39,525 bases of DNA. Origin: Candidatus Melainabacteria bacterium. GTDB lineage: Bacteria > Cyanobacteriota > Vampirovibrionia > Obscuribacterales > Obscuribacteraceae. The notes under the pieces are model-generated. The model did not search any database, was not told where the DNA came from, and was given only the letters and a program-made list of their open reading frames with translations. The first letter of the stretch is position 1. Every line of letters begins with the position of its first letter. Below, one piece after another: positions 4,557 through 21,067 of the stretch. The stretch is taken from the NCBI GenBank assembly GCA_027451745.1, contig DAIDIP010000023.1:1-39525 (forward strand), read 5' to 3'. A program made the position numbers and the translations under genes.

Positions 4557-5766
4557 TATTACTTATCATTTAATTTTGCCCGCTTTGCAAAAAATTGCTG
4601 AGCTTACCCATAGCTATGGCTGGGGAATTATTCTGCTAACAATTATTTTTAGAGTACTGGTGTCGCCCCTGGTGGCGCAGACGACTATTTCTATGCGTCG
4701 AATGTCCAAGCTTCAGCCGCAAATGAAAATGATTCAAGAGCGCTATAAAAGTAATCCCGAACAATTACAAAAGAAGCTAGTTGAGTTTTATGCCAAAAAC
4801 AAAGTAAATCCGTTAGGTGGTTGCTTGCCAACATTGGTGCAATTGCCTATTTTGTTTGCTCTTTATGCGGCATTCGCCGGACCCCCTTTTACTGACAAAT
4901 TAATTGATGTGAAAGTAAATGTTGTAAAAGCAGAGAATGCCCAATCTGTTAAAAGAGAAGAAGAGTCAGGATCTAACAGCATTTATGTATCTAAGGATGG
5001 TAAGCCAGCCAAAGTAGTTGTATTCCCTGGAAACTCCACTTTTATTGCTGGAACAGATGTTGATTTTGGTGTACGAGCAGTTGAGGGCAAGCTTCCTCCT
5101 GACTTTGCCCCACAATGGCATATGACTTACAAAGACACTGAAGGTAAAGATCACAAAGTAAACATCACCCCTGCTGGTCATGTTACTTTTGCTAATCCAG
5201 GCGAATATCACATTCAGGCATCTATTCCAGGCATTGCTAAAAATGAATCATTTGCCTTTGTATCAGGCTTAGGAAAAGTGGCTACTGGTGCAAGTTTGCT
5301 CAAGCCAGCTAATTTTGACGTAGTATTTTTGATCTTGCTATTTGGCATTACTATGTATTTGTCGCAGAAACTAACCGTTCCAACCCCTAAGCCGGCTAAT
5401 GGACAAGAGCTTGACGAGCAGCAGATTATTCAACAACAAACAATGAAGACCATGCCATTGGTGACGACGGCTATGTTCTTCTTCTTTCCTATACCAGCCG
5501 GGGTTTACTTATATTTAGTAGTATCCAATGTGATTCAAACTTTTCAGACTTGGCTGGTGGCGCGTATGCCTGAGCCTGAATTTGTTAGCGACGATGACAA
5601 TGTTATAGAAGCTGAAACAGGTAATAACGGTGGGCAAAAATCGTTAATTAAACCAAACAAGAAGCCAGCGAATAACAATAATGGAAAAGCAGAAAATACA
5701 CAAAACAAAAATGTGAATGAGACTAGCAACAAGCAACAAAAGAAAAAATCCAAGCGGAAGAAATAA
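4543..5766 (+). CDS. yidC: Membrane protein insertase YidC/OxaI
   Basis: Inserts and folds inner-membrane proteins. The 407-aa protein has a first hydrophobic segment at about 25-45 containing the conserved arginine (LTIIFRVLVSP), a cytoplasmic loop, a second segment with LGGCLPTLVQLPILFALY, then further hydrophobic segments near 260-280 (FDVVFLILLFG) and 305-340. Between the second and third lies an insert of about 130 residues, with beta-rich Ig-like character near GHVTFANPGEYHIQ. The C-terminus is an Asn/Lys-rich basic tail that could contact ribosomes. The start appears to be TTG at 4543, downstream of GGGAGG and overlapping yidD. Confidence 0.93.
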   Translation: MNFPDITYHLILPALQKIAELTHSYGWGIILLTIIFRVLVSPLVAQTTISMRRMSKLQPQMKMIQERYKSNPEQLQKKLVEFYAKNKVNPLGGCLPTLVQLPILFALYAAFAGPPFTDKLIDVKVNVVKAENAQSVKREEESGSNSIYVSKDGKPAKVVVFPGNSTFIAGTDVDFGVRAVEGKLPPDFAPQWHMTYKDTEGKDHKVNITPAGHVTFANPGEYHIQASIPGIAKNESFAFVSGLGKVATGASLLKPANFDVVFLILLFGITMYLSQKLTVPTPKPANGQELDEQQIIQQQTMKTMPLVTTAMFFFFPIPAGVYLYLVVSNVIQTFQTWLVARMPEPEFVSDDDNVIEAETGNNGGQKSLIKPNKKPANNNNGKAENTQNKNVNETSNKQQKKKSKRKK

Positions 5767-5786
5767 ACTTATAGAGAATAAAAACT

Positions 5787-6338
5787 ATGACTCACTCTGA
5801 TTTTAGTGATAATGCCAAATCATATTTAGAAAAGATCCTAGCCATCCTCGACATAGAAGCAAGCGTACTTGAGGAAGGGCTGGATGAAAATACAGTTTGT
5901 TATCGTATAAATTGCAAGGCCGACGATGCGCGCATATTAATAGGACGCAATGGTCAAACTTTGGAATCATTGCAGTTTGTAGTAAGACAAATGTGCCGCA
6001 GCGGCGGAAGCGAAAGTCAAAAACCATTTTTGATTGACATTCTTGATTACCGCGACAGACGCAAAAGAAACATTGAAGAACAAGCTAAAAAAGCAGCCGT
6101 TGCGGTTTTGAATGGCGAGTCGGAGAAAGTGCATCTAAACCCAATGAATCCTTTTGAGCGAAGAATTGTACATCAATACTTACAGATAGATTTTTCTGAT
6201 CTTGTCTCACATAGTGAAGGCGAAGGTCCAGATAGACATATTGTTATTAGTTATGGTGGTATGCCTGAAGATGAGCATAGCCAAAAGAGTCACAAAGATA
6301 GCAGCGAGCTAGGCGAAGTCTTAGGCCCTGCTGAGTAA
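5787..6338 (+). CDS. khpB: RNA-binding protein KhpB/Jag (KH and R3H domains)
   Basis: RNA-binding regulator commonly encoded next to yidC; relatives act in sRNA/mRNA control and cell elongation. The 183-aa protein has a type-II KH domain with the GxxG-containing LIGRNGQTLESLQ (about residues 50-62) and an R3H domain with NPMNPFERRIVHQYL and SEGEGPDRHIVIS (about 110-150). The N-terminal Jag_N domain found in some relatives is absent. It starts 20 nt after the yidC stop and closes the cluster. Confidence 0.9.
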   Translation: MTHSDFSDNAKSYLEKILAILDIEASVLEEGLDENTVCYRINCKADDARILIGRNGQTLESLQFVVRQMCRSGGSESQKPFLIDILDYRDRRKRNIEEQAKKAAVAVLNGESEKVHLNPMNPFERRIVHQYLQIDFSDLVSHSEGEGPDRHIVISYGGMPEDEHSQKSHKDSSELGEVLGPAE

Positions 6339-11864: not shown

Positions 11865-12307
11865 GAAGTAGTGCAGGCCATCGCGTTAGTGTTAAACATT
11901 AATGAGGAAAGTCCGGGCACCATAGGGCTGGTTGCTGGGTAATTCCCAGTGCGCGTGAGCGTGAGGATAGTGCCACAGAAATGAAAACCGCCATACTTAA
12001 TACGGATAAACGCGGGCGAGGCGACATGTGCGTCGAGCCCAAGTGAGAATGGTACGCGCGTAGGAGGCGAGGGCAACCGAGCTGATGCAGCGCATAAGTA
12101 TGGTAAGGGTGCAACGGTGCGGTAAGAGCGCACCAGCGAAGTCGAGAGGCTTCGGCTAGGTAAACCCCGCTAAAGGTGCAAGGCAAAGGTATACGTCGAG
12201 GTCATAGTGGCCCGCTATCTCGAAGTGCCGAAGCTGCTTGAGGGTTTAGGTAACTAAACCCCTAGAGAGATGATAGCTAAAACAGAACCCGGCTTATGCA
12301 TTACTTC
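11865..12307 (+). ncRNA. rnpB: RNase P RNA (type A)
   Basis: Catalytic RNA of RNase P, partner of the rnpA product. The hallmark GAGGAAAGTCCGGGCACC occurs near the 5' end; ACAGAAA, GGTAAACCCC, and the terminal GATGATAGCT and ACAGAACCCGGCTTA follow in the canonical order. The ends were set by the P1 helix: GAAGTAGTGCA (11865-11875) pairs with TGCATTACTTC (12297-12307) with one G-U. A U-rich stretch follows. Length is about 443 nt. Confidence 0.95.
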
Positions 12308-12403
12308 TTTCTTTTTCAATTTGTCTATAATTTATAGAGCACGACTCTTATAGATGAAGCGTTATAATCAAAATCTAGCTTAGAAAAAGGGCTATTAGTA
12401 TTT

Positions 12404-14047: not shown

Positions 14048-14203
14048 TTAGCGTTGCCAGCGCGAAGCTTTATGATGCGCCCAAGATAAGCTTTCAAGAA
14101 AATGCCTGTCTTCTTTTGAAAGATGTGCTTTTTCGAGCAAATTAGGACGGCGTTGATATGTAATACGCAACGCTTCCTGGCGTCGCCAGTTATTCCTCGT
14201 CAA
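14048..14203 (-). pseudogene. TrmD C-terminal fragment (duplicated)
   Basis: Just after hisB, in another frame, the minus strand encodes NWRRQEALRITYQRRPNLLE and LSKEDRHF before a stop at 14048. This matches the C-terminus of the full TrmD in this window (KWRRQEALRVTYQRRPDLLD, LSKEDNLF). The DNA blocks 14144-14188 and 21245-21289 differ at one of 45 positions, while the flanking 35 nt match at only 24. The frame is open only back to 14218, with no ATG. It lacks the methyltransferase domain, so it cannot be a tRNA methylase; it is probably a duplication remnant. Confidence 0.75.
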
Positions 14204-14849
14204 AGATGCCTTTTGTACTTAAAATAAGTGGATCATGAAGAGGTGCTATTGCTTCTCGCAATGATCTAGCAAAGCTTTTGAATATTGCCTCGATTACATG
14301 GTGATCGTTGTCTCCATATAAAAGATTGACGTGTATAGTACTGCGCAAACCATCCACCAATCCTTTAAAAAATTCTTTAAATAATTTCGGATCGAGAGTA
14401 CCGACAGCTTGGCTCGTTAACTGAACATTCCAAACAAGATTGCTACGGCCACATATATCTAAGGCGATTACAGCCAGGCTACCGTCCATGGGAAATGAGA
14501 AACAACCAGCGCGCTGAATTCCAGTTAGGCCTCCTAAAGCCTTGAATATGCATTGCCCTAAGACAATACCAACATCTTCCATTAAGTGATGAGGATCTAC
14601 TTCTGTATCACCAGTGGCTTTAATATTAAGTCCGATTTTGCTATGACAAGCAAAAGTATCAAGCATGTGTGTAAAAAATGGCAGTGGGGTTTTGATATCA
14701 TTTATGCCTGACTGATCGAGATTTATCTCGACCAATATTTGTGTTTCTTTTGACTTACGCTCTATAGAGGCTGTTCGGGACTGCTTATTGACCATGTGTT
14801 CAGTTGTGTTGATGCTTTGTATGATTTCGTCTGTTTTGTTTTTAATCAT
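14190..14849 (-). CDS. hisB: Imidazoleglycerol-phosphate dehydratase
   Basis: Converts imidazole glycerol phosphate to imidazole acetol phosphate in histidine synthesis. The 219-aa protein contains the metal-binding HHLMEDVGI, the first histidine region FFTHMLDTFACHSKIGL and the second DNDHHVIEAIFKSFARSL, all diagnostic of IGPD. It is monofunctional: there is no histidinol-phosphatase domain. An N-terminal tail of ~25 residues extends beyond the usual start. The ATG at 14849 follows CGGAG; a GTG at 14864 overlapping hisC is the alternative. Last gene of the operon. Confidence 0.94.
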   Translation of the reverse strand: MIKNKTDEIIQSINTTEHMVNKQSRTASIERKSKETQILVEINLDQSGINDIKTPLPFFTHMLDTFACHSKIGLNIKATGDTEVDPHHLMEDVGIVLGQCIFKALGGLTGIQRAGCFSFPMDGSLAVIALDICGRSNLVWNVQLTSQAVGTLDPKLFKEFFKGLVDGLRSTIHVNLLYGDNDHHVIEAIFKSFARSLREAIAPLHDPLILSTKGIFDEE

Positions 14850-14853
14850 GCTT

Positions 14854-15930
14854 TTACTCCGCACAGATAAGTGTTTTTAATTCTTGGAGCAGCTTGTCAT
14901 TTTGCTCCTGAGTACCGACAGTGATACGGATTTTATTAGTTAAATGAGGGAGATCCCACCAGCGCACCAGAATATTTTTTTCTTTCAATGATTGATAGAT
15001 ATGTCTTCCAGATAATTGCTGCTTAGTTGAGGCAGGGATTTGAGCTAGAACAAAATTGGCATGTGAGTCAGGCAGTACAAAACCCAGGGACCGCAGCGCA
15101 CAGGATAAGCGTGCTCGTTCAGATTTGATTTTTTGCCAGGTTGATCGGGCATAAGCCTGATCTTTAAGAGCTGCTGTGGCAGCGGCAATAGCAATCGTGT
15201 CACACGGATATGAATCACGAACCTTTTCTATTTCTTTAAGGATAGACGCTTGACCAATGGCGTAACCAAAACGAAGTCCAGCTAAAGAATAGCCCTTAGA
15301 CATAGTACGCAGAAGAATAACGTTTTTATATTTATGAACGAGAGCAAGAGCTGATTCGTCAGCAAAATCTACATAGGCTTCATCAATTACCACCACGCCC
15401 AGAAAATTCTTAGCAATCTGTTCCAGTCTAGCAATAGGTTCAAAGTGACCAGAGGGAGCATTAGGATTACAAATTAACAGCAACGATGCCTCTATAGTTT
15501 CAAGATTATCTGGCAGGGACCAATTTGTATCATTTATTTTGTATTGCTGGACAATTTTATCTGCGCCTTGTATCTCGGCAAGTACCGGATAAAGGGAATA
15601 AGAAGGTTCCAAGAAAAGTATAGAATCTTTTTCGGAGGCGCAAGCGCGAACCATTGCCGCCAGTAACTCATCACCGCCATTGAAAGTCATAATGCAGTCA
15701 GGGTCTACACCGTGAAGCGAGGCGGCCGCTTGACGAAAAAGATCGGCGCGCGGATTAGGGTAGCGACGCAATTGCTCAAAAGTAATAGCGCGAATCGCTT
15801 CTAAAGCCAGCGGCGACGGGCTATAAGGATTTTCATTGGTATTGAGCTTAATGGTTGTGGTATCTGTTGGTTGCTCACCGGGACTATATCCAGAAGACTG
15901 CGCAATGTTGGGGCGCACTAAATTAGTCAT
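14854..15930 (-). CDS. hisC: Histidinol-phosphate aminotransferase
   Basis: PLP-dependent class I/II aminotransferase making histidinol phosphate. The 358-aa protein shows KLNTNENPYSPSP, RYPNPRADLFRQAAA, CNPNAPSGH, VIDEAYVDF and the PLP-lysine segment LLRTMSKGYSLAGLRFGYAIG, all canonical. The ATG overlaps the hisD stop in an ATGA, so the two are translationally coupled, and it ends 5 nt before or 11 nt inside hisB depending on the hisB start. Confidence 0.94.
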   Translation of the reverse strand: MTNLVRPNIAQSSGYSPGEQPTDTTTIKLNTNENPYSPSPLALEAIRAITFEQLRRYPNPRADLFRQAAASLHGVDPDCIMTFNGGDELLAAMVRACASEKDSILFLEPSYSLYPVLAEIQGADKIVQQYKINDTNWSLPDNLETIEASLLLICNPNAPSGHFEPIARLEQIAKNFLGVVVIDEAYVDFADESALALVHKYKNVILLRTMSKGYSLAGLRFGYAIGQASILKEIEKVRDSYPCDTIAIAAATAALKDQAYARSTWQKIKSERARLSCALRSLGFVLPDSHANFVLAQIPASTKQQLSGRHIYQSLKEKNILVRWWDLPHLTNKIRITVGTQEQNDKLLQELKTLICAE

Positions 15931-17258
15931 GATACGTGCACCTTTTCCTTCTCAAAGCGCAGATCAACACTGCGTTGGTGCGCATCAAGTCCCTCCACTT
16001 GAGAAATGGTTTTTACGATTGGCTGTAAACGGTTTAACCCGGACTGGTTTATATGGGAATATTGAACACGTTTCATGAATGTCCATGTACCAACTGGAGA
16101 AGACCGGCGGGCCCAGCCACAAGTAGGTAAGCAATGATTGATGCCTGTAGCATAGTCGCCAACGGCGACTGGATTATAATGACCAAGAAAAACAGAGCCG
16201 GCATTATTAATAAGTTTTAGAATTGTTTTTGGGTTTTCTGTCAAGATTTCCAAATGCTCGGGCGCATAGTCATTTATGAAATCAATAGACTCTGTCAATG
16301 AAGGGGCAATTAGAATGGCACTATAGGTGCTTATAGCTGCTTTCACATAATTCTGCCTAGATAACCTTTGAAATTGTTTTTCGATCTCAGATTTAATTAA
16401 TTGAGCAAGATCTTTTGAGTCGGTAAGGACGATTCCGGCCGAATCCGGACCATGCTCTACTTGAGCGAGAAGATCGGCAGCACAATATTTGGCCTTTGTA
16501 TTTAAGTCAAAGCCAGAAGAGGTGGAAGCATCTGCCAGAATTACTATTTCGCTTGGTCCAGCGGGCATATCGATTGCTACTTTTGCTTGACACAATATTT
16601 TTGCTGCAGTCACATACGGATTGCCTGGTCCAGCGATGAGATCTACTGCAGAAATAGTTTCGGTACCATAAGCCATCGCTGCAATGGCTTGAGCACCGCT
16701 AACCCTGTATATTTCTTCGATGCCGCATTCATTGGCGGCGATCAGTACCTCGTAATTTTTTCCTTTGGGAGATATACAAGAAATTATTCGGTTACAGCCG
16801 GCAGTTTTAGCCGCGACAGCCAGGATTTGTTGCACAGTAGGAAAAGGATTCTTGCCGCCGGGAACATAGAGCCCGACTTTGTCAACAGCTGTCCATTTTT
16901 CGCCAACTATAATGCCCCTTTCTGTTTCTTTTTCCCAATCGCGAATTTGTTGTCTTTGAGTTTCGTGGAATGTTCGCGCTAGTGAAATTTGTTCTTTGAC
17001 TTTTTCAATTATTTCTTTCCCCGTATTGTTATAGGCTTCCCTAATGTCAGCCTTAGTAACTGTTAGCCTTGGAAAAGAAAATTCAGGATCGTCCCATTCT
17101 TTTGTAAATTGAACGAGTGCGCTGTCTCCCTTCGTTCTTATAGACGTGATAATTTCTTCGACTTTGGATTTTACTTTGTCGATATCATTTTGGGATCGGT
17201 TCTTTATTCGGTCAAGGGCTGGCTTAGATATTTTGTTTAATTCATAAATATTGATCAT
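15927..17258 (-). CDS. hisD: Histidinol dehydrogenase
   Basis: NAD- and zinc-dependent enzyme carrying out the last two steps, histidinol to histidine. The 443-aa protein has the family motifs VGLYVPGGKNPFPTVQ, VSGAQAIAAMAYGTE, VDLIAGPGNPYVTAAK, PAGPSEIVILAD, LLAQVEHGPDS and the C-terminal NDYAPEHLEI. The start at ATG 17258 follows TTGGAG by six bases; a TTG at 17276 is less likely. It begins 27 nt after the hisA/I/E fusion and overlaps hisC by 4 nt. Confidence 0.94.
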   Translation of the reverse strand: MINIYELNKISKPALDRIKNRSQNDIDKVKSKVEEIITSIRTKGDSALVQFTKEWDDPEFSFPRLTVTKADIREAYNNTGKEIIEKVKEQISLARTFHETQRQQIRDWEKETERGIIVGEKWTAVDKVGLYVPGGKNPFPTVQQILAVAAKTAGCNRIISCISPKGKNYEVLIAANECGIEEIYRVSGAQAIAAMAYGTETISAVDLIAGPGNPYVTAAKILCQAKVAIDMPAGPSEIVILADASTSSGFDLNTKAKYCAADLLAQVEHGPDSAGIVLTDSKDLAQLIKSEIEKQFQRLSRQNYVKAAISTYSAILIAPSLTESIDFINDYAPEHLEILTENPKTILKLINNAGSVFLGHYNPVAVGDYATGINHCLPTCGWARRSSPVGTWTFMKRVQYSHINQSGLNRLQPIVKTISQVEGLDAHQRSVDLRFEKEKVHVS

Positions 17259-17285
17259 TCTGTACTCCAATTTCAAACAGTCATA

Positions 17286-18518
17286 TTAGTAACGGCGCCC
17301 GGCCAATTGGGACTCTATATCCTTCCATCCAATCCCTTCATCTACGGAAAGTAAACTCAAAAAGTAGAGACTGTCTGCTATCTCCCAACAAAGATTTTCT
17401 TTTGACGAAAAATTTATTACTTCAGAGATTTCTTCTAAAATTTTCTCTTTTAGTAATTGTCTATTTTTAAATAGAGTGGCTGAATAGGAATTTTTTGGCA
17501 AGAATTTTAGACGAGTAATGAGCGTCTCAAAAAGTTGGTTCATAGAAAACTTGGGCGAAGAGCTGTTATCGAAACAGCTATAGTTGCTATTATGACAAGC
17601 AGCATTTTTTTGTTTGACTGTAAAGAGCAGACTGTCGCGATCGCAGTCAAGACGACAAGAAATTAATTGTTGATAATTGCCAGACGTCAATCCTTTTTCC
17701 CAGATAGATTGCCGCGAGCGACTAAAATAAATGCCCTTGCTTTCTATCAGTGCTCGTTTAAGGGAGGCGGGTGAACTGTACGCCAACATCAATACTTGGC
17801 CGTATTGATCTTGTACAATCGTGGGACAGAGCCCATCCTTGTTGAAATTCACACTGCCAATCACTGAATCTGCTAAGTCTATTTTTCCAGTATAAATGGC
17901 CATACCCACTTGGACATCAACATCCAATTTGGAAATTTCAAGTACTTCCTGTGTGGTGGCTGTACCACCTGCTACAGTAAGGGGCTTCTCTAACTGGTCC
18001 TTCAGCTGTTTGATAAGCTCTACTGGCAGCCCACCTAATCCGCCTTCTGCTTCAATAAAAGTAGTGAGAAAACTGTTGCAGTAGGGGGACAAGCGTTGTG
18101 CTCTGGTGAGTACAGACTCCCCAGTAGAATTTTGCCAGCCTTTGTCAAACACAGTACCATTGCGTTGGTCTAAGGCCACCATGATTGAATCGCTAGGGAA
18201 ACAGGACAATAATTCTGGAGTAGCCGCGGTGCCAAAGATGAGTCGCTTAGCACCACTTCCAAGAAGTTCGCGGCCCCTTTCAAAATCTCTAATGCCACCG
18301 CCTACACGCACATCAGCTGTCCGACAGAGTTGTTTTAAAAGATCTAAATTGTCTCCGGTGCCCATGGCTGCGTCTAAATCTATTACGGCAATTTCTCCAA
18401 ATTTGTTGAACTCTTTAGCCAATTCAATGGGGTCGCGATTGCTTTCTAAGATAAGATCCTTACCTTGTCTCAATTGAACGACTTTGCCATTTTGAATATC
18501 TATACTTGGTACTAACAT
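17286..18518 (-). CDS. hisA/hisI/hisE: HisA-HisI-HisE trifunctional fusion
   Basis: One 410-aa chain appears to carry three histidine enzymes. Residues 1-~222 are ProFAR isomerase HisA (PSIDIQNGKVVQL, VIDLDAAMG, VRVGGGIR, TVAGGTATT). Residues ~228-318 are phosphoribosyl-AMP cyclohydrolase HisI (GIYFSRSRQSIWEKGLTSG, the LDCDRDS metal site, AACHNSNYSCF). Residues ~326-408 are phosphoribosyl-ATP pyrophosphohydrolase HisE (KEKILEEISEVI, WEIADSLYFLSLL). HisIE fusions are common; HisA joined in front is unusual. In HisA, the usual T-D-I-x-x-D-G reads TFIEAEG. It overlaps hisF by 7 nt. Confidence 0.9.
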   Translation of the reverse strand: MLVPSIDIQNGKVVQLRQGKDLILESNRDPIELAKEFNKFGEIAVIDLDAAMGTGDNLDLLKQLCRTADVRVGGGIRDFERGRELLGSGAKRLIFGTAATPELLSCFPSDSIMVALDQRNGTVFDKGWQNSTGESVLTRAQRLSPYCNSFLTTFIEAEGGLGGLPVELIKQLKDQLEKPLTVAGGTATTQEVLEISKLDVDVQVGMAIYTGKIDLADSVIGSVNFNKDGLCPTIVQDQYGQVLMLAYSSPASLKRALIESKGIYFSRSRQSIWEKGLTSGNYQQLISCRLDCDRDSLLFTVKQKNAACHNSNYSCFDNSSSPKFSMNQLFETLITRLKFLPKNSYSATLFKNRQLLKEKILEEISEVINFSSKENLCWEIADSLYFLSLLSVDEGIGWKDIESQLAGRRY

Positions 18519-19306
18519 GTTCTAATGGGGACCCCCCTCTTTTCAATTTCTTTTTTTAGTGCTCGCACTGTCCAGATACTGTCATGAAATATAGTTGCAG
18601 CTAGGGCGGCATCGGCACTTCCTAAGGTAAATGCGTCAACGAAACAATCTGGACCCTTGGCGCCTCCTGAGGCAATGATCGGGACTGAAAGCATTGTGGA
18701 AAAATGTTTTACCTGGGGAATATCAAAGCCCGAAAGGGTGCCATCTTTATCCCAGGACGTAAGCAGAATTTCACCCGCGCCAAGTTCTATGGCTTGCTGT
18801 GCCCAGAGAAAAGCGTCAATACCAGTTGAATATTTTCCACCGTGTGTTAGTACTTCCCAATTACTATGGTTATTGCCACTTTGAGGAGATTGCAACTTAC
18901 GGGCGTCAATGGCTAAAACGCAACATTGCGAACCGAAAATATTGGCAATTTCGGGAATTAGTGTGGGTCTTTCTACAGCTGCAGTATTAATTGAAACTTT
19001 ATCGGCACCATTTGCTAGCAGCCGGTGTGCATCATCAAGCGATGTAATACCTCCGCCTACGGTGAAGGGGATTGATAGATGTTCGGAAATTTTTGCAACA
19101 AGTTCGACTGTAGTTCGCTTGCCCTCAACAGAAGCCATTATGTCTAGAAACATGAGCTCATCAGCTCCCTGGGCTTGATATTTAAGTGCCTGTGAAACAG
19201 GATCGCCAACATCTCTTTGTCCAGTAAAGTTGACGCCTTTAACTATTCGTCCATTGGCGATATCCATACAGGGAATGATACGTTTGCGTAGATTATTAAC
19301 TGACAT
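18512..19306 (-). CDS. hisF: Imidazole glycerol phosphate synthase, cyclase subunit
   Basis: Beta/alpha barrel that uses ammonia from HisH to make imidazole glycerol phosphate and AICAR. From the ATG at 19306 it is 264 aa. Motifs are RIIPCMDIANGRIVKGVNF, GADELMFLDI, PFTVGGGI, NGADKVSINTAA, LAIDAR and LTSWDKDGTLSGFD, with both catalytic aspartates (CMDIANG and SWDKDG) present. A short Ser/Asn/His-rich stretch (QSPQSGNNHS) follows LAIDARK. The start overlaps the hisH stop by 11 nt, and GGGGGTGG stands upstream. Confidence 0.95.
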   Translation of the reverse strand: MSVNNLRKRIIPCMDIANGRIVKGVNFTGQRDVGDPVSQALKYQAQGADELMFLDIMASVEGKRTTVELVAKISEHLSIPFTVGGGITSLDDAHRLLANGADKVSINTAAVERPTLIPEIANIFGSQCCVLAIDARKLQSPQSGNNHSNWEVLTHGGKYSTGIDAFLWAQQAIELGAGEILLTSWDKDGTLSGFDIPQVKHFSTMLSVPIIASGGAKGPDCFVDAFTLGSADAALAATIFHDSIWTVRALKKEIEKRGVPIRTC

Positions 19307-19886
19307 TGTGCAACCACCCCCTGAGGAATTCAGCACCATACTGTGCACTTTTTTCTGGATGAAACTGCACCGCAGTTATATTGTTGAATTGCAAGGCAGC
19401 GCAAAACTCAACATGATAATTGGCTGTGTGACTAACAATTGCTTGTGTCTGTGGTTCGGCATAAAATGAGTTGACAAAATAAGCATATTCAGTCGCGGTA
19501 GAAGTACCATTCAAGGGCTTGATAAGATTCCAGCCAATTTGAGGAATTTTTCCCTGCCGAAAACGAACGATTTTTCCTTTCAATAATCCTAAGCCGGATA
19601 CATTTTTTGATTCTTCACTGCTGTCGAATAGAATTTGCAAGCCAACACAAATACCTAAGTATGGTGTTCCGGCGAGAATTAAATTATGCAAGCACAAATC
19701 AAAATCACTTTGTTTTAAAGCTTGCATGATTGCTCCGAATTGACCAACTCCTGGCAAAATAAGAGGATGCTTGCCATTAGGAGGATTGCCAGGTCCAACG
19801 ATGTGATACTTGACGCCGAGACGGTCTAGGCAGCGTTTAATACTTCCTACATTGCCAATGCCGATTTCTACTAGATCAATTTTCAT
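19296..19886 (-). CDS. hisH: Imidazole glycerol phosphate synthase, glutaminase subunit
   Basis: Class-I glutamine amidotransferase that feeds ammonia to HisF. The 196-aa protein has GIGNVGSIKRCLDRLG, LPGVGQFGAIM, the nucleophile in YLGICVGLQILFD and the His-Glu pair in VQFHPEKSA. The ATG at 19886 gives the typical MKIDLVEIG start; a GTG at 19901 is an alternative, only 3 nt beyond the hisG stop. It overlaps hisF, consistent with production of a 1:1 complex. Confidence 0.94.
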   Translation of the reverse strand: MKIDLVEIGIGNVGSIKRCLDRLGVKYHIVGPGNPPNGKHPLILPGVGQFGAIMQALKQSDFDLCLHNLILAGTPYLGICVGLQILFDSSEESKNVSGLGLLKGKIVRFRQGKIPQIGWNLIKPLNGTSTATEYAYFVNSFYAEPQTQAIVSHTANYHVEFCAALQFNNITAVQFHPEKSAQYGAEFLRGWLHNVS

Positions 19887-19904
19887 GTTCACTTTAGCCA
19901 CACG

Positions 19905-20840
19905 TTAAGCGATAATTTTTTGTAATTTGTATTGGAAAATATCTGTTGCCCCTAGTGTCACGAGTTGCGGCAAGAGAGCAGGTATTAGGTCTACTGAAAC
20001 AGCTGCTTTTATTACATAGCCCTTGCCATCAAACAGTGCTGAGATTGTGGGTGCCAGCATGGAGGGCAAATTATTTACTACTTGCTGAAAAGCCTCATTT
20101 GAAACATTCATTTCTAAAAGTACTTTTGTTTGCGCTTGAATGGTGCTTTTCATAAGCATGGCTAATTCATCAAGCCGAGAGCGTTTAACCGGATCTTCAT
20201 ATGCCTGTTTGTTGCAGATAAAACGAGTAGTAGATTTCATTAACTCATCAACAATTACAAGCCGATTGTGATGCAAGGTTGTGCCGGAGGATGTATTATC
20301 AATAACAATGTCAGCGTCTTCTGGCGGCAAAGCCTCGGTTGCTCCATATGTTTGTACGAAAATTGCGTCTAAGCCAGATCGCTGTATGAAATTATTAGAC
20401 AGGCGGCAATATTCTGATGCAACAACTACTGACCGATTGGAGACTCTGTTGTGTAATTCAAATAAATTGCCGAGCTCTTCAGGCATAGCGACAACGATTC
20501 TAACTGGATCAAACTCTAAGTCCAATAATTCAATAACATCTGCGTTTTGTTCGACAACCCAGTCATGTCCTGTGAAGCCGCAATCGTGTCTGCCCAATGC
20601 GACCAATCGAGGAATATTTTGCGCTTTGAGAATTTTGGCATCAATCTGTAAATCAGTGCAAACAGGGCGATAGGAACGTCCATTGGATAAAAATTTCAAG
20701 CCGATTTCCTCAAGAAGTTTAAGGACTTTATCCTGGATGCGTCCTGTGGGTAAAGTCATCTTTAATTTGTCGACTGAAAAAATCGGTGGTAAACACGTTT
20801 TTGTTTCTGGAGATATTTCGGGGCAAGATTGGATTAACAT
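19905..20840 (-). CDS. hisG: ATP phosphoribosyltransferase, long form
   Basis: First and usually histidine-inhibited enzyme of the pathway, joining ATP and PRPP. The 311-aa protein contains LKMTLPTGRIQDKVLKLLEE, GRHDCGFTGHDW and DIVIDNTSSGTTL. The ~100-residue C-terminal part (from MLMKSTIQAQTKVLLEMNV to GATDIFQYKLQKI) is the PII-like regulatory domain of long HisG, so no HisZ is needed. GAGG lies 4-5 nt before the ATG. It is the first structural gene after the leader and attenuator. Confidence 0.94.
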   Translation of the reverse strand: MLIQSCPEISPETKTCLPPIFSVDKLKMTLPTGRIQDKVLKLLEEIGLKFLSNGRSYRPVCTDLQIDAKILKAQNIPRLVALGRHDCGFTGHDWVVEQNADVIELLDLEFDPVRIVVAMPEELGNLFELHNRVSNRSVVVASEYCRLSNNFIQRSGLDAIFVQTYGATEALPPEDADIVIDNTSSGTTLHHNRLVIVDELMKSTTRFICNKQAYEDPVKRSRLDELAMLMKSTIQAQTKVLLEMNVSNEAFQQVVNNLPSMLAPTISALFDGKGYVIKAAVSVDLIPALLPQLVTLGATDIFQYKLQKIIA

Positions 20841-20869: not shown

Positions 20870-20892
20870 AAAGCCCGCCTAAAGCGGGCTTT
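20870..20892 (-). terminator. his attenuator terminator (C:D stem)
   Basis: On the minus strand AAAGCCCGC pairs with GCGGGCTTT across a 5-nt loop, a perfect 9-bp stem followed by a run of U (CTTTTTG). It lies between the leader peptide and hisG, 30 nt before the hisG start codon, and so would stop transcription before the structural genes. The C arm (20883-20890) can instead pair with the B segment at 20933-20943. Confidence 0.88.
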
Positions 20893-20931
20893 GAAAAACT
20901 ATTACAAGTGCAATTATTGCCAGGTAACTAT

Positions 20932-21018
20932 TCAGCCCGCTCCTTCATAGAAATGATGATGATGTCTATGGGAAGACACATCATTGAATAAAGAGGAGTG
21001 GGCGGAATTAAATTTCAT
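20932..21018 (-). CDS. hisL: his operon leader peptide
   Basis: A 28-codon frame from the ATG at 21018 ends at TGA 20932-20934. The peptide contains HRHHHHFYEGAG, with six histidines in total (positions 7, 17 and 19-22). Such a cluster is the histidine sensor of ribosome-mediated attenuation. No good Shine-Dalgarno site is visible, so the exact start is less certain than the His block. The last three sense codons and the stop form segment B (GGAGCGGGC), which can pair with A (GCCCACTCC at 20995-21003, one mismatch) or with C (AGCCCGCT at 20883-20890, 8 bp plus two G-U). Confidence 0.82.
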   Translation of the reverse strand: MKFNSAHSSLFNDVSSHRHHHHFYEGAG

Positions 21019-21035
21019 AATTAGTGGATGGGCAA

Positions 21036-21067
21036 TTTATACGTTCTACTTGAGACAGCTGTGTCAA
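21036..21067 (-). promoter_or_regulatory. Probable his operon promoter
   Basis: On the minus strand a consensus TTGACA (21062-21067) is followed by TATAAA (21036-21041). The 20-nt spacer is longer than the ideal 17, so the pair may not be exact. The predicted start would lie about 10 nt before the leader peptide ATG. Confidence 0.5.

Follow-up and report, generated by a model that had tools for sequence, protein, structure and literature searches.

The histidine biosynthetic operon of a Candidatus Melainabacteria bacterium, a relative of the cyanobacteria that is not photosynthetic, is very probably preceded by a ribosome-mediated transcription attenuator, which is predicted here from the leader of hisG and from its counterparts in related genomes. 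In the window, i.e., the whole stretch of 39,525 nucleotides that was analysed, the anatomical features of the his attenuator class occur together: a leader frame, a terminator, a covarying antiterminator, an A:B helix, and a leader stop codon situated at arm B. This anatomy strongly supports attenuation governed by the charging of His-tRNA. The earlier note on this DNA had guessed a Melainabacteria-type genome and was right, because the source belongs to the Obscuribacteraceae (Melainabacteria, Cyanobacteriota).

The operon lies on the minus strand in the order hisG-H-F-A::IE-D-C-B, and all of its genes are named by curated models. The first gene is a long-form hisG (19905..20840; TIGR00070, TIGR03455), followed by hisH (19296..19901; TIGR01855), hisF (18512..19348; TIGR00735), hisA fused to hisIE (17286..18518), hisD (15927..17276; TIGR00069), hisC (14854..15930; TIGR01141), and hisB (14190..14864; NF002111). 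The true start of hisF is probably approx. 50 bases inside the listed frame, since the profile match begins only at residue 20. In the fusion, HisA (residues 3-216) and HisIE (residues 220-409) share one frame of 410 amino acids, and a fused match of full length is found in 13 relatives; five his fusions are listed in PMC1963479, and hisA::hisIE is not one of them. Upstream of the leader, trmD is encoded on the same strand. Elsewhere in the window, an ordinary RNase P RNA of bacterial class A occupies 11865-12311 of the plus strand (250 bits) and offers a clear anchor by which the contig can be placed.

The leader peptide frame (MKFNSAHSSLFNDVSSHRHHHHFYEGAG, then stop; 20932..21018, minus strand) comprises 28 codons and runs from ATG at 21018 to TGA at 20932, the stop codon being 20934-20932. 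Direct reading bore out the earlier description of a 28-codon minus-strand frame with HRHHHH. This block, which spans codons 17-22 (20953..20970), would provide the sensing codons, and its His run is kept across the family; a further His is located outside it, at codon 7. A homologous frame is present in a congener (G001), with substitutions distributed 3/3/9 by codon position over 20 codons. No clear Shine-Dalgarno sequence was seen at the leader start on the minus strand of the window.

Four arms, all on the minus strand, make up the pairing scheme. Arm A (GCCCACTCC, 21003-20995) is complementary to GGAGCGGGC of arm B (20943-20935) with a single mismatch, as had been claimed, and the A:B helix has an energy of -18.0 kcal/mol in the window (p 0.005). 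Arm B as a whole (GGAGCGGGCU, 20943-20934), which is assigned by pairing and covariation as the 5' strand of the antiterminator, extends up to and includes the initial base of the leader's stop codon. It pairs with AGCCCGCUUU of arm C (20890-20881) through eight Watson-Crick pairs and two G-U pairs, exactly as the earlier note had stated. Arm C (20881..20892), assigned on the same grounds, is common to the antiterminator (B:C) and the terminator (C:D). Arm D (20870..20879), supported by a terminator scan and by covariation, forms the 3' strand of the terminator and is followed by a U-rich tail; the C:D helix had been described as 9 bp with a U run, and the scan gives a stem of 10 pairs (20892-20870) that lies approx. 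30 nt upstream of the hisG start (20840). The 221-nt leader as a whole folds at -64.6 kcal/mol compared with a shuffle mean of -39.7 kcal/mol (z -6.6). The best-supported candidate for the leader promoter is TTGCCT-17-TATATT (21126-21098), in which TG precedes the second hexamer; it comes from a consensus scan that yielded two sites vs. 1.5 expected by chance, and the congener has an almost identical sequence there. TTGACA at 21067 was rejected as a promoter, as 20 nt separate it from TATAAA and the site is not kept in the congener.

Within this arrangement, a ribosome supplied with charged His-tRNA would reach the stop codon (20934-20932) and cover arm B; C would then pair with D, and transcription would end upstream of hisG. 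Under conditions that leave His-tRNA uncharged, the ribosome would halt in the His block (20970-20953), open A:B, and leave B free, whereupon B would take C and RNA polymerase would read into the his operon. Without translation, A:B would form and termination would follow by default. We infer this protector role for A:B, i.e., that it restores termination when the leader is not translated.

Selection on the RNA pairing was assessed on an alignment of 23 sequences. The antiterminator helix 19-24:114-119 is paired in 90.6% of cells, and at pair 23-115 a G-C is exchanged for A-U in three sequences. In a second antiterminator helix, CUGA:UCAG, all four pairs have changed on both sides. Shifting the antiterminator partner by one to three columns reduces pairing from 82.6% to 28-52%. 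Terminator pairs are retained in 97.8% of cells, with covariation that exceeds all 500 shuffles. The mean B:C energy is -18.4 vs. -11.1 (sd 0.6) for shuffled B, a comparison flattered by the fact that the B segment was chosen for its pairing with C. Two tests are not tied to this choice in the same way: native combinations of B and C pair more strongly than swapped ones (p 0.004), and with full-spacer shuffles p does not exceed 0.22 for any sequence. Relative to the end of the stop codon, arm B begins at a position ranging from 24 nt upstream to 4 nt downstream in 22 of 23 sequences, the distance being 36 nt in the remaining one (L050).

Comparison of the window with its congener offers the best single argument for selection on the RNA. 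The frame near B differs between the two (HHHHFYEGAG stop vs. HHPFLKERAE stop), although the 23 nucleotides around B are identical; AAGGAGCGGGCTGAATAGTTACC is unchanged in the congener despite the shifted reading frame there. Thus, it is the RNA, and not the end of the peptide, that is conserved. Judged from the compensatory changes, the advantage of native over swapped pairs, and this unchanged B in a frame-shifted congener, the B:C pairing is selected. Summed over the family, A:B gives z -5.2, and -3.0 after thinning of near copies; it is uneven between species and not significant in many single sequences.

The check proposed in the earlier note, an alignment of hisG upstream regions of relatives, was carried out and revealed conserved His codons and covarying arms. 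Relatives were found by searching with a HisG alignment, a single HisG query having given none. Nearly all relatives with 56-64% HisG identity have a His-run frame upstream of hisG, with runs such as HHHHHH, HAHHHH, HHVHHHHH, and HGHHHHHH; beyond the run, their leader peptides have little in common and vary in length. When a leader was counted as four His in seven residues followed by a downstream terminator, the combination preceded hisG at 24 of 31 Melainabacteria loci, with none in eight shuffle rounds, on reversed strands, or in 62 control upstreams of serS, trpE, and leuA. A covariance model built on the B-to-terminator region found 26 sites with E below 1e-5 among 50 genomes of Obscuribacteraceae, 25 of them before hisG and one before hisD in the congener G001. 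In one locus truncated by a contig end (L048), the B-to-terminator part is still present. Weaker matches to the model R1 (L138-L143) showed no His frame on individual reading and were judged to be chance terminators; another weak match (L137) was rejected as a his leader and proved to be a Ser leader before an extra serS.

In the HisG tree, the window belongs to a supported group that comprises 24 rows, and leaders are present in 21 of these. Two species of one genus (L040, L041) keep the operon with no leader before it and have lost the attenuator. No His-run frame was found at 30 hisG loci sampled within the phylum, of which 27 lie outside the class, and the element was absent from the photosynthetic cyanobacteria sampled. 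In G001 (L136:4531-4622, 4737-6047), the attenuator precedes hisD alone and adjoins trmD, and close by, the opposite strand carries a short, divergent hisG. The leader in this congener has outlived a rearrangement of the operon.

Leaders with runs of other amino acids also occur in the family. In all nine of the extra (second-type) serS genes examined, a short Ser-run frame lies upstream (G000:C2:134000-134202 (L137, L174), G000:C47 (L175), and L176-L182), and for eight of the nine a terminator accompanied by a candidate B arm is shown; the window's own genome contributes MNQANKFQFASSSSSNRRCGLTMA (then stop), with the run SSSSS. Main serS copies are without a Ser-run leader. A putative attenuator of Ser type on a duplicate synthetase appears to be undescribed. 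Before trpE, Trp leader frames were found at eight loci (L219, L208, L211, L212, L216, L220, L222, L223); they contain WW runs, often end in PGK.(L/M)PGW, and in most cases are accompanied by GC-rich terminators. For example, the window's own genome has NWWRNLQQPGKRMPGW and a GC-rich terminator before trpE (L219, G000:C15). Upstream of leuA, four relatives (L192, L193, L197, L198) have Leu-run frames with GGCTCTGT...ACAGAGCC-type terminators and strong B:C pairing (z -7.4); in the window's own genome, the leuA-like gene has no Leu-run leader. It should be noted that a simple terminator finder misses bulged stems, which makes some B:C values of the Ser and Trp leaders unreliable; the Ser terminators were reanalysed.

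Three other explanations of the his leader have to be considered. The His-rich frame might encode a small functional protein, such as a metal-binding peptide, with the hairpin ending transcription of that gene or of trmD in the ordinary way. His runs can indeed bind metals, and trmD, encoded on the same strand, does lie upstream of the hairpin. However, the peptides are alike in little but the His run and are variable in length, the nucleotides of B are kept even where the frame shifts or a stop precedes them, and B covaries with C. In addition, the gap of approx. 30 nt between hairpin and hisG is too short for a separate hisG promoter. This explanation is considered very improbable. A coincidence, in which a frame with clustered His codons happens to stand beside a terminator, could appeal to the 20 occurrences of CAYCAYCAYCAY in the 3.0 Mb genome, a number not much higher than the 14 of the backward control; however, chance would have to account for the recurrence of frame and terminator before 24 of 31 hisG loci and in none of the controls, and its probability is negligible. 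On this comparison of loci, it can be regarded as already refuted.

It is also conceivable, if hardly likely, that the leader terminator responds to another signal, such as a protein or the general rate of translation, and that the His codons play a minor role. The unevenness of A:B across species would fit such a scheme, and a choice between B:C and C:D could by itself serve any sensor. However, the codon run matches its cognate each time (His with his, Trp with trpE, Leu with leuA, and Ser with the extra serS), and the leader contains no T-box or other Rfam family; in particular, the T-box riboswitch (RF00230) gave no match in the window or in eight related loci. Sensing of His-tRNA charging by a translating ribosome thus remains the preferred reading of the element.

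His leaders are not confined to the Melainabacteria. Under the same rule of four His in seven residues, other phyla have a His-run frame and terminator before hisG at 16 of 37 loci (L053, L058, L060, L065, L073, L085, L086, L090, L091, L095, L097-L099, L101-L103). The 16 loci belong to Zixiibacteriota, Planctomycetota, Fermentibacterota, Calditrichota, Spirochaetota, and Gemmatimonadota, with the reservation that the bins may be misnamed. At one locus (L060), the B/C sequence is common with that of Obscuribacteraceae, and outside the class B:C pairing gives z -8.7 for a set of 18 loci that includes two from Vampirovibrionales. The HisG tree requires about eleven changes of the leader label, so loss, transfer, and repeated origin of the leader are all possible.

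It is probable that Obscuribacteraceae use ribosome-sensing attenuators of His, Trp, Leu, and Ser type (the last on an extra serS) and that His leaders before related long-form hisG genes extend across Planctomycetota, Spirochaetota, Zixiibacteriota, Fermentibacterota, Gemmatimonadota, and Calditrichota. A comparative study from 2013 suggests a gammaproteobacterial origin of amino acid attenuator motifs with very few transfers (PMC3766115), and a survey of leader genes from 2016 states that reliable data on attenuation are lacking for cyanobacteria (PMC4833913). A covarying his attenuator in Obscuribacterales, together with the Trp, Leu, and Ser leaders, would change the known distribution of attenuation; if this is true, the view of amino acid attenuation as mainly gammaproteobacterial would be a sampling effect. 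It would also imply that in uncultured Obscuribacterales transcription and translation are coupled closely enough for the ribosome to steer RNA polymerase. Moreover, the set of natural variants lends itself to the question of whether these switches are spread by transfer or have evolved several times.

In enteric bacteria, his attenuators are a classical mechanism, and the E. coli his leader is 16 codons long and includes seven consecutive His. The element described here resembles enteric hisL (E. coli/Salmonella; RF00514) in its short frame with a His run, its mutually exclusive antiterminator and terminator, its protector arm A, and its position before hisG. In contrast to hisL, it has four consecutive His codons and two more in a leader of 28 codons, and unlike in the enteric system, the operon order is hisG-H-F-A::IE-D-C-B. 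The His_leader family (RF00514) gave no match in the window even at E up to 10, and none in eight related loci. The window terminator (GCCCGC...GCGGGC with a U tail) scores weakly against Trp_leader (RF00513), with 23.8 bits vs. a gathering score of 41, which reflects resemblance of the terminators only. The earlier note had regarded the occurrence of such an attenuator in a likely Cyanobacteria/Melainabacteria-type genome as new. The novelty holds for the phylum and does not extend to non-enteric bacteria in general, since his attenuators have been predicted in other Proteobacteria and in Firmicutes, namely in the Bacillus cereus group, Peptostreptococcaceae, and Erysipelotrichales (PMC9413887). 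A literature search, which was not exhaustive, found no earlier paper on attenuation in Melainabacteria. The kind of element is known; its occurrence in the phylum is new as far as could be ascertained. The predicted Firmicutes attenuators, which belong to a different phylum and were compared by description, likewise have consecutive His codons (three to five) and a terminator and antiterminator before his operons (PMC9413887). Leader peptides with His are also found before hisS/hisZ in Bacilli (PMC2965389). These provide another example of a His-run leader with a terminator outside Proteobacteria; however, they control synthetase-type genes, whereas the leader described here precedes a biosynthetic operon.
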